Shown: piece after piece, positions 10,499 to 60,348 of the stretch
Layout of the letters: each line of letters begins with the position of its first letter
How positions within the stretch are numbered: the stretch's first letter is position 1
NCBI GenBank assembly: GCA_016840515.1
Contig: JAEOSF010000001.1
Span: forward strand, 82,447 to 146,446
DNA: 64,000 nucleotides
Direction of reading: 5' to 3'
Source of the DNA: Candidatus Borrarchaeum yapensis
GTDB taxonomy: Archaea > Asgardarchaeota > Sifarchaeia > Borrarchaeales > Borrarchaeaceae
The notes under the pieces: model-generated
Database searches by the model: none
Told to the model about the DNA's origin: nothing
What the model saw: only the letters and a program-made list of their open reading frames with translations
Program-made: the position numbers and the translations under genes

Positions 10499-11338
10499 TT
10501 AAAGGTGTTTTTTCACATTTTTGAAATGAAGTTTGGCCACTAGGGGAAGGATTTTTGGATCGATTTCAGCAGGTTTTATTTTTCTAAGATCAATTTTGTA
10601 TTTCTTATTTAGTTTATCAACTTCATTCTCGAAAATATGTTTTGCAATAATGCTAGCCAGGGCCACAGAAATCTCAGATTCGCCTTTAGTTTTCTGAATT
10701 ATTTCTAAATTTGTTCTGTCGACACTTGAAAGTCTGTATTCTGTTTTCTGAAAGTCGAACTTGTCTATAACAACCTTAGCGTTGTTGAATTTTATTTCTT
10801 TCAATAAATCCTTTATGGCTGCTGAGTGTGCCCATGCTAACATGTCATTAAGATTTTTTCCTTCGTTCTGGAACTCCTTGTATTTTGAATTGTAGACTTC
10901 AGGCTTAAGAATTACTAGTTTTCTGGGAAATTTTTGCTTCACAAGTTTTTGCGCAAGATTCATCAGTTGTTTCTCAGCAATTGATTTGCTATCCCTGACG
11001 CCCATCCTTCTGCATTCCATGATCAATTCAGGTGTTAATGCTACCCCTTCTACAACAAGTGGTCCATACCATTCACCTTTGCCCGCTTCATCAGATCCTA
11101 TGATGTAGTCATAGATTTTTTCCTTCTTTAAGATGGCATCAATTACTTGTTGAGACCCCTTAGTTCCATTATGAACCACTTTTCCTGATGTATAAACCAC
11201 TATACTGATTTTTCCGTCTTTTATTCGTAATAATTCGTACTCAGTTTTTGGACGTACTTTCTTTAGACCGATTTTTTCAATATAGTTTTTTAACTCTTCA
11301 ATTTCTGATTTATCTAGTTCCAGAGAGATAGGTGGCAT
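10499..11338 (-). CDS. rnhC: ribonuclease HIII-like protein
   Basis: The 279-residue protein removes RNA from RNA/DNA hybrids. The catalytic start IIGSDEAGKGEWYGPLVV matches the GSDExGxGDxFGPLVV form of RNase HIII better than the GIDEAGRGPxxGP form of HII. VRDSK, AHSAAIKDLL and VVIDKFDF supply later active-site segments. The first 85 residues (LELDKSEIEELKNYIEKIGL, then IVVYTSGKVVHNGTKG) resemble the TBP-like substrate-binding domain found in HIII but not in HII. RNase HIII is mainly bacterial, so it is uncommon here. Frame and length are intact. Confidence 0.8.
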   Translation of the reverse strand: MPPISLELDKSEIEELKNYIEKIGLKKVRPKTEYELLRIKDGKISIVVYTSGKVVHNGTKGSQQVIDAILKKEKIYDYIIGSDEAGKGEWYGPLVVEGVALTPELIMECRRMGVRDSKSIAEKQLMNLAQKLVKQKFPRKLVILKPEVYNSKYKEFQNEGKNLNDMLAWAHSAAIKDLLKEIKFNNAKVVIDKFDFQKTEYRLSSVDRTNLEIIQKTKGESEISVALASIIAKHIFENEVDKLNKKYKIDLRKIKPAEIDPKILPLVAKLHFKNVKKHL

Positions 11339-58153: not shown

Positions 58154-60334
58154 TTAGATAGTAGGTAACCCTCGTAGCCCTCTCCGAGCACGTATCTCTT
58201 GAATAACTTCCTGTGAAACTTTCGGGCTTAAGGGACTCCACTGATTCAAGAAAACTGTTTGAAAAAATGCATACCCAGAAGTTTCAGCACGTAATTCAGT
58301 TGTTAGGTTTAAAGTTGTTGCTACTGGAATAGTGCCGATGATTGTTACAATATGACCCTTTTGAGAACTTTCAGATATTTTACCTCTTCTTCTGTTCAGC
58401 ACACTTGTAACCTTTCCGATGAATTCAGATGGAATTCTCACCTGGATTTTGTACAGCGGTTCTAATAAGACAGGGTTACCCTTTAAAATTACATCAAAAA
58501 TTGCATAAGTCATCATTGGAACTATATTTGAGGGACTACGATGTTCAGCAGTTAAACTAAATTCTAACTCTTTAATCGTTACTTTAACGCCCCGTATATG
58601 CTCTTGTGCTAAGGGACCTGCTTGCATAGCTTGTTTAAAACTAGCAATAAGAAGATCCTTAGCTTCCGAAAAAAAAGGAACTCTTGAGGTTTCGTTAACT
58701 AAAATGTTTGCAAAATTGTCCAAATAGAGTATTGAGCGTGCCTCAGTTTTAGACCATTTGGCTTTCTCAATAAGGGTTTTAATTATTCTTCTTTGATCTG
58801 TTTTTTCTGTTATCTCCTTATCTGCTATTAAACTAATACTTTTTTCGTCTAAGGGCTCTGCGACCAATTGAATTCTGTTGAATCCATTTTCATCACTATT
58901 TGCTAAGACAGGAGTGCTTTGGGATATTGTTTCGCGATATACTATGAGAGGTTTTGAAGTAATCACCTTAACGCCTTCTTTTTCGATATCTTTTACAGCA
59001 ATTTCAAGGTGAAGTTCTCCAATCCCTGAAAGAAGCACCTCACCTGTTTCTTGATTAACAGTACTAACCAAATTAGGATCCTGAATCGCCAGTCTTTCAA
59101 TGATCTCTGCTAAGTCCGGGAGTTGTCTAGTCAGTGTGGGTTCTATTGCTACGGTCATAACAGGTTCAGAAACATAAGAAATGCCTTCAAATGGTGTAAT
59201 CTGATCAACATAATCGTGATTGATAATTGTTTCACCAGTTGTTACATTCCCTACTCCTGCGAGTGCAACAATGTTACCCGCGCTTAGTTCTTCTACAATT
59301 TTTCTTTGCGCTCCCATAAACATACTTACTTGTGTTATTCGATTGTTTTCGTTTGCCAAAATTGGATGTACAAAATCACCTACGTGAACTGTACCGGAAA
59401 AAATTCGTCCCGTAGCGATTCTTCCTGCATGAGGATCTTGTATTATTTTATGGACACAAATCACTAAAGGTCCGTTCTCATCACAATTAAGCATTGATAT
59501 GCCTGTTTTGCTAGTTAAATCACCTTGCCATATACGTGGGATTCTATAAGGTTGTGCTTGCTTTGGATTCGGTAAATGGTCAATTACCATATCTAAGACT
59601 GCCTCATGAACAGGTATAGTTTCAGCTAACTCCTGTATTTTGTTTTCTTTGTATCCTTCAAGAATTTGGGCAAACTTCACACCTTTTTTGGTAGTAATAG
59701 CACTTGAAAGAGCCCAACGATGAAGAGCCGAGCCAAAAACCACTGTTCCACTAGCAACATTTACCTTCCAGTCATCCTTGTATTCTTCTTCAGCATATAA
59801 TTCAATTAAGGTGTTGAACTCCTGAACAATATACTTTAATTTCTTCTGTATTTCTTCTGGAGTTAACTTTAGTTCATTAATCAACCGATCAACTTTATTG
59901 ATAAACAAAACGGGCTTTACACGTTCCTGAAGCGCTTGTCTCGTCACTGTCTCTGTTTGTACCATTACTTCTTCGACTGCGTCAACAACCACGATTGCTC
60001 CATCAATAGCCCTAAGGGCACGATTTACTTTTCCAGAGAAGTCTACATGACCAGGTGTGTCAACCAAATTAATAACATATTCTTTTTCATCTTTAGAATA
60101 GAGTAAAGATATTGTCGCACTCTTAATCGTGATTCCTCTCAATTGTTCTTCATCGAGATAATCAAGTGCACGTGCTTTGCCAACGATTGATGGGGATAAT
60201 AAACCTGAATTCGCCAGAAACGAATCTGCGAGTGTTGTTTTTCCATGGTCTATATGTGCAATTATACCAATATTGCGAATTTGTTTTTTGCTTTTCATTA
60301 TTTTAAGAAGCTCTGGAACTAATTTTGAACTCAA
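58154..60334 (-). CDS. fusA: elongation factor EF-2, with a diverged diphthamide loop
   Basis: The roughly 726-residue translocase starts at a TTG (60334) with GAGGT nine bases upstream; longer frames overlap the upstream gene. G domain: IGIIAHIDHGKTTLADSFLA, YLDEEQLRGITIKSATISLL, NLVDTPGHVDFSGKVNRALR and VLFINKVDRLINELK. Domains II-V follow. In domain IV the loop that normally reads D-A-IHRGPAQxIP is LTAEHRSPSNIVP: the diphthamide His (about residue 598, codon 58541-58543) is kept but its neighbours differ. It may be the main EF-2 of a lineage without diphthamide or a paralogue. Confidence 0.9.
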   Translation of the reverse strand: MSSKLVPELLKIMKSKKQIRNIGIIAHIDHGKTTLADSFLANSGLLSPSIVGKARALDYLDEEQLRGITIKSATISLLYSKDEKEYVINLVDTPGHVDFSGKVNRALRAIDGAIVVVDAVEEVMVQTETVTRQALQERVKPVLFINKVDRLINELKLTPEEIQKKLKYIVQEFNTLIELYAEEEYKDDWKVNVASGTVVFGSALHRWALSSAITTKKGVKFAQILEGYKENKIQELAETIPVHEAVLDMVIDHLPNPKQAQPYRIPRIWQGDLTSKTGISMLNCDENGPLVICVHKIIQDPHAGRIATGRIFSGTVHVGDFVHPILANENNRITQVSMFMGAQRKIVEELSAGNIVALAGVGNVTTGETIINHDYVDQITPFEGISYVSEPVMTVAIEPTLTRQLPDLAEIIERLAIQDPNLVSTVNQETGEVLLSGIGELHLEIAVKDIEKEGVKVITSKPLIVYRETISQSTPVLANSDENGFNRIQLVAEPLDEKSISLIADKEITEKTDQRRIIKTLIEKAKWSKTEARSILYLDNFANILVNETSRVPFFSEAKDLLIASFKQAMQAGPLAQEHIRGVKVTIKELEFSLTAEHRSPSNIVPMMTYAIFDVILKGNPVLLEPLYKIQVRIPSEFIGKVTSVLNRRRGKISESSQKGHIVTIIGTIPVATTLNLTTELRAETSGYAFFQTVFLNQWSPLSPKVSQEVIQEIRARRGLRGLPTI

Positions 60335-60348
60335 GACAAGGACCTCAA

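Follow-up and report, generated by a model that had tools for sequence, protein, structure and literature searches.

Diphthamide has long been regarded as universal in archaea and eukaryotes. The stretch of Candidatus Borrarchaeum yapensis DNA analysed here (64,000 nucleotides of contig JAEOSF010000001.1, genome G000; hereafter, the window) encodes an elongation factor 2 (EF-2) whose diphthamide loop departs from the canonical sequence, raising the questions of whether the cell makes diphthamide and whether this protein is still its main translocase.

An EF-2 gene with an altered domain IV tip

The open reading frame of the EF-2 gene is uninterrupted in the ORF list of the window [Table 1]. 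The TTG codon at 60334, the start originally assigned, remains the best one, since it is preceded by a GAGGTC motif, since motif and TTG are both kept in two congeners, and since the longer frame that opens at a GTG (60418) is interrupted by a stop codon in one congener. The co-directional upstream ORF ends 14 bp ahead of this start, and the two genes may possibly form one operon. Elsewhere in the window, the product of an ORF at 10499-11338 on the minus strand resembles RNase HIII by eye, which is unusual for archaea.

Table 1 Features of the EF-2 locus and of the cobalamin cluster (window coordinates unless another locus is named).
Feature	Position	Strand	Remarks
EF-2, A type, 726 aa	58154..60334	-	TTG start at 60334
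Likely ribosome-binding site of the TTG start, GAGGTC	60341..60346	-	kept in two congeners
Upstream co-directional ORF, 245 aa	60349..61086	-	5-formyltetrahydrofolate cyclo-ligase-like (by eye)
G1 motif AHIDHGKTT	60233..60259	-	P-loop
G2 motif RGITI	60125..60139	-	
G3 motif DTPGH	60047..60061	-	with catalytic His
G4 motif NKVD	59888..59899	-	
G5 motif GSAL	59723..59734	-	
Domain IV	58460..58930	-	approximate bounds, from alignment; tip loops altered
Diphthamide loop SLTAEHRSPSN	58526..58558	-	aa 593-603; canonical HEDPxHRGxxQ
DUF71-B12 type (ENGEYH) gene	L185 3532-4188	+	G000 contig C78, cobalamin cluster
DUF71-B12 type (ENGEYH) gene	L185 14847-15485	-	G000 contig C78, cobalamin cluster

The protein scored 768.5 bits against TIGR00490, the archaeal EF-2 model, above the curated cut-off of 738.45. 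Its G domain had been described as intact, and all of G1 to G5 are indeed present, so that the protein is predicted from its motifs to be an active GTPase. The structure model displayed a complete EF-2 fold (mean pLDDT 85.7), the top solved match of which was the archaeal EF-2 6u44 (Z 54.0, rmsd 3.2 over 700 residues). Snu114 was also among the structural matches, with a low rmsd; this match may perhaps reflect conformation only, and is no evidence of function.

The tip of domain IV, in contrast, has lost most of its canonical residues. The original prediction had the almost invariant flank of the target histidine, IHRGPAQ/GGQ, replaced by EHRSPSN, which is correct, and the change extends beyond this segment. 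In yeast numbering, H694 is replaced by S, D696 by T, G701 by S and the loop Q by N, such that the canonical pattern HEDxxHRGxxQ is not matched and H699 and R700 alone are kept; in the neighbouring tip loop, H583 is replaced by F. The columns of H583, H694, D696, H699 and the loop Q are invariant in the 17 canonical rows of our alignment, and G701 is a glycine in 14 of these. In yeast eEF2, diphthamide-699, H583, H694 and D696 are reported to contact or hold the codon-anticodon duplex (PMC8674143). The homologue from Ca. Borrarchaeum weybense, an organism described in PMC9723677, is 96% identical to the window EF-2 over the whole protein, is encoded on a contig of 964,535 bases, and carries the identical loop. 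Thus, the altered loop is due neither to chance nor to sequencing error.

The diphthamide pathway and the second EF-2 of Borrarchaeum

Profile searches yielded no match to Dph1/2 (PF01866) or Dph5 (TIGR00522) in G000 or in the congeneric genomes G175, G176 and G177; the four archaeal control genomes were positive for both models, and two of the four congeneric genomes are estimated to be 100% complete. The Dph6-like family PF01902, on the other hand, had two matches in G000. Both of these proteins and the G175 match terminate in CGENGEYHT, and the signatures given for the family in PMC3541065 are EGGE/DxE for Dph6 and ENGEYH for the DUF71-B12 type. Consistent with this distinction, PF01902 matches from the dph-positive genomes G075, G077, G053 and G001 display EGGExE, a second G075 copy harboring ENGEYH. 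Among the 14 sources in which the motif was read, seven had a full motif, two (G108 and G117) had CGENGE only, and five, in which no motif was found, were left untyped. The two G000 genes lie on contig C78 in a cobalamin cluster that also includes CbiZ- and CbiB-like genes (named by eye). On the grounds of their B12-type motif and of this gene context, we rejected both as candidates for Dph6. A family search alone would label them diphthine-ammonia ligase. Taken together, the missing Dph1/2 and Dph5 and the B12-type nature of the PF01902 matches indicate that the Borrarchaeum cell is unable to make diphthamide by the known route.

A second EF-2 is encoded on contig C107 of G000. It is only 36% identical to the window EF-2 and bears the loop HEDPAHTRAGQ. 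We refer to EF-2s with a loop of this kind as P type and to those with an eroded or deleted tip, including the window copy, as A type. Both copies are also found in the congeners G175 and G177, the latter an 8-contig assembly in which each EF-2 gene lies on a long contig. The P copy of G177, located on a 147-kb contig, is 95% identical to that of C107 and has the same neighbours except for a TnpB-like gene; the C107 copy is thus no contaminant. In G000, the TnpB-like gene (assigned by eye; L003 4760-5911, minus strand) lies directly next to the P-type EF-2; G177 has no such gene at this place. Divergence of the loop had originally been associated with archaea that lack diphthamide synthesis genes or carry an EF-2 paralogue, and both hold in Borrarchaeum: neither Dph1/2, Dph5 nor a true Dph6 was found, and the paralogue is the P-type copy.

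EF-2 types across Asgard archaea

A survey of 227 Asgard genomes by profile searches with cut-offs detected Dph1/2 in 21, Dph5 in 24 and either of them in 26. A canonical loop could be read in 22 genomes, every one of which has dph2 or dph5 and a single match with the domain III-V profile; four of the 26 dph-positive genomes (G009, G073, G076 and G166) offered no loop to read. The dph-negative genomes, part of which were read and in which the incompleteness of metagenome-assembled genomes limits what an absence from a single genome means, hold the two kinds of EF-2. The P type is represented by 29 rows with the loop HxDPxHT or near it, and the A type by 33 rows from 33 genomes, none of which has Dph1/2 or Dph5 over the cut-off. 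The set of 79 rows consists of 52 chosen from the survey and 27 A copies fetched later; for L170 and L172, the longest open piece was used with nothing joined.

Several side observations emerged from the survey. Families f3, f14 and f15 have dph genes and a single canonical EF-2, so that several Asgard families do; where they discuss dph genes in Asgard archaea, Eme et al. 2023 (PMC10307638) name only Hodarchaeales. G160 (f22) and G166 (f25) have dph genes although their families are otherwise without them; with estimated contaminations of 9 and 12%, these are possibly mixed assemblies. A bathyarchaeote (SKYB16; L015) harbors two EF-2 genes in one 10-kb locus, both with HEDPVHR and 53 and 44% identical to the window EF-2. 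On contig C137 of G226 (L119 and L062), an A-type and a P-type gene, encoded on opposite strands, are separated by a few kilobases.

The two types differ sharply at the tip. In P rows, H694, D696 and H699 are each present in 29/29, H583 is present in 24/29, and a threonine occupies the R700 column throughout (29/29). In A rows, H694 is found in 3/33, D696 in 4/33 and H699 in 3/33; two of the three with H699 are from Borrarchaeum, and the alignment of the third (f8) is uncertain. The target column holds N in the A copy of G175, which is 79% identical to the window EF-2, and E, M, L, Q or a deletion elsewhere, among them M or L in three f5 copies. Thus, the target histidine is kept in the window EF-2, as originally noted, but this is not meaningful: with an asparagine in so close a congener, the retained histidine is no evidence of modification but a relic or a product of chance, and it is not a conserved target. 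Mean pairwise identity tells the same story at the scale of domains, amounting in domain IV to 0.17 among A rows compared with 0.52 among P and 0.48 among canonical rows, and in the G domain to 0.44 among A rows. In one f28 A copy (L180), domain IV is no longer reported by Pfam, although in reduced form it can still be recognised in the structure model. Few copies in the A group are as well preserved as the window EF-2, which is 42-53% identical to the canonical rows.

P copies were set apart from A and canonical EF-2s at 100/100 in both careful trees. In the all-column tree, restricted to 60 of the 79 rows by omission of the longest A branches and of near-duplicates, 19 A rows formed one clade beside the dph-positive Asgard EF-2s (99/93). 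With domains I-III (50 of the 79 rows), in contrast, the A copies did not form one clade, the window EF-2 grouping with f20 and f21 A copies (95/90), and a quick tree of all 79 rows placed four f28 A copies on a long branch outside the other 29. In the phylogeny, proposed at the outset as a check, a single origin of tip loss is thus supported with all columns and not with domains I-III alone. The tip may have been lost more than once, with no single relief event, or the signal of these domains may be too weak. As to gene neighbourhood, 4 of 20 A loci and none of 17 P loci lie near uS10, uS12 or EF-1A, a small difference, and the canonical EF-2 of Diapherotrites is likewise found in this (str) operon; this argues weakly that the A copy holds the ancestral EF-2 site. 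Conserved neighbours gave no further clue to the job of the A copy, consisting only of the scattered str-operon genes at those 4 of 20 A loci.

A proposed role for the window copy

Nei-Gojobori counts, obtained with our own script, yielded dN/dS values for the window A copy of 0.089 against G177 and 0.103 against G175, those of the P copy in the same comparisons being 0.056 and 0.053. The window EF-2 is under purifying selection and is, therefore, not a pseudogene. Over the 11 codons of the loop, a short stretch, dN between the window copy and that of G175 was 0.377, compared to 0.127 for the whole gene and to 0 for the P loop. The A gene has been kept; the A tip has not. Codon usage was also considered as a proxy for expression and set aside, there being no useful bias (CAI-like values of 0.675 for A and 0.651 for P).

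Given that two copies are present, that dph genes are missing, that the tip has decayed and that selection is purifying, we infer a division of labour, an order of events and a residual job for the A copy. Probably, the P copy encoded on C107 is the working translocase, and the window A copy is a ribosome-bound GTPase that has been released from mRNA translocation and has another job on the ribosome, aIF6 release or recycling for example; it is probably not the main translocase of the cell. The P copy, in which the tip residues for the codon-anticodon pair are kept, would translocate with an unmodified histidine. The A copy would derive from the ancestral canonical EF-2, and its domain IV tip would have decayed once P had taken over translocation and the dph genes had been lost. 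As its GTPase, its overall fold and domains II, III and V have all been kept, the A copy most likely continues to bind the factor site of the ribosome and to hydrolyse GTP, in a job for which neither mRNA nor tRNA would have to be contacted; recycling would be one such job, and the displacement of aIF6 from the 50S subunit another. In Sulfolobus, ordinary aEF-2 is reported to hydrolyse GTP in order to release aIF6, with no SBDS involved, and Efl1 is said to be missing from archaea (PMC8024482). Retention of an aIF6-release job would account for an A gene that is kept while its tip decays; such a role is not specific to the A copy, as any EF-2 might fulfil it.

It seems unlikely that the A copy still translocates for some mRNAs or under some conditions, its tip having drifted after diphthamide loss while P shares the work. 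The full length of the protein, its intact G1-G5, the His and Arg kept and the score to aEF-2 would suit such a factor, and tip substitutions in yeast are reported to trigger -1 frameshifts, that is, a partial defect (PMC6193676). However, the remaining tip contacts (H583, H694 and D696) are all changed, the A loop has diverged at three times the rate of the gene, with no change in the P loop of the same genomes, and the loop is missing in related A copies. Given its good preservation and the His/Arg pair at 699/700, some translocation may remain in the window copy. We attach a low probability to the A copy acting outside both elongation and subunit maturation, for instance in hibernation or rescue; EF-2s on dormant or dimeric ribosomal particles (9ou7, 8y0w) are among the structural matches, and sequence cannot tell such a job from the one that we favour. 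That the gene is a decaying pseudogene, a misassembly or a contaminant, as its eroded tip and the estimated contamination of G000 (10.26%) might suggest, is highly improbable in view of the open frame, the dN/dS of 0.09-0.10 and the near-identical gene on the long Ca. B. weybense contig. Equally improbable is a histidine still modified through an undetected diphthamide pathway: it sits at the right column, but Dph1/2 and Dph5 are missing from all four congeneric genomes, including the two estimated complete, the PF01902 matches are of B12 type, and a congener has N.

Returning to a released A copy, its extension to the group as a whole is more tentative. Most Asgard archaea might possess a diphthamide-free translocase P together with A, a dedicated ribosomal GTPase that does not translocate but serves in the maturation or splitting of subunits, a separately arisen analogue of EFL1, with Borrarchaeum at an early stage where the tip has just been lost and the body is still canonical. 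The EF-2 pair, P with nearly all codon-contacting residues and A without them in one cell, offers a natural test of the role of diphthamide and of the domain IV tip, and also of whether the body of EF-2 performs an essential task of its own in maturing subunits. As A and P are easily mixed, the A-type gene is a risky choice as a plain EF-2 marker in trees of Asgard archaea and eukaryotes.

Comparison with known systems places the window EF-2 as follows. With canonical archaeal EF-2 (TIGR00490; 8hl1, 6u45, 5h7j) it shares all domains, G1-G5 and the predicted fold; it differs in the absence of the domain IV tip residues and in a host that has no diphthamide pathway and a second EF-2. EFL1, the eukaryotic GTPase that releases eIF6, is a relative of EF-2 that works on the ribosome without translocating mRNA, which is what we propose for the A copy. 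The likeness does not extend to kinship, the window EF-2 scoring 710.1 bits with archaeal EF-2, 439.1 with eEF2 and 252.7 with EFL1; sequence scores gave EFL1 no advantage over eEF2, Snu114 or EF-G, and a special relationship with EFL1 or Snu114 was discarded.

The second EF-2 paralogue of dph-lacking Asgard archaea, reportedly described by Narrowe and colleagues in 2018 under the label aEF-2p, is the closest parallel. According to Eme et al. 2023 (PMC10307638), who cite Narrowe et al. 2018 (10.1093/gbe/evy154), a second EF-2 that lacks key residues is encoded by many of the archaea that have no diphthamide genes. Borrarchaeum has in common with them the lack of diphthamide genes and the presence of two EF-2s, one without the modification residues, and differs in its window copy, of which the histidine is retained and the body is close to canonical. 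The window EF-2 is thus a well-preserved member of this published kind, to which we add, with no claim to priority, which copy is which, the contrast between A and P tips, the B12 nature of the PF01902 genes and a target histidine that is not conserved.
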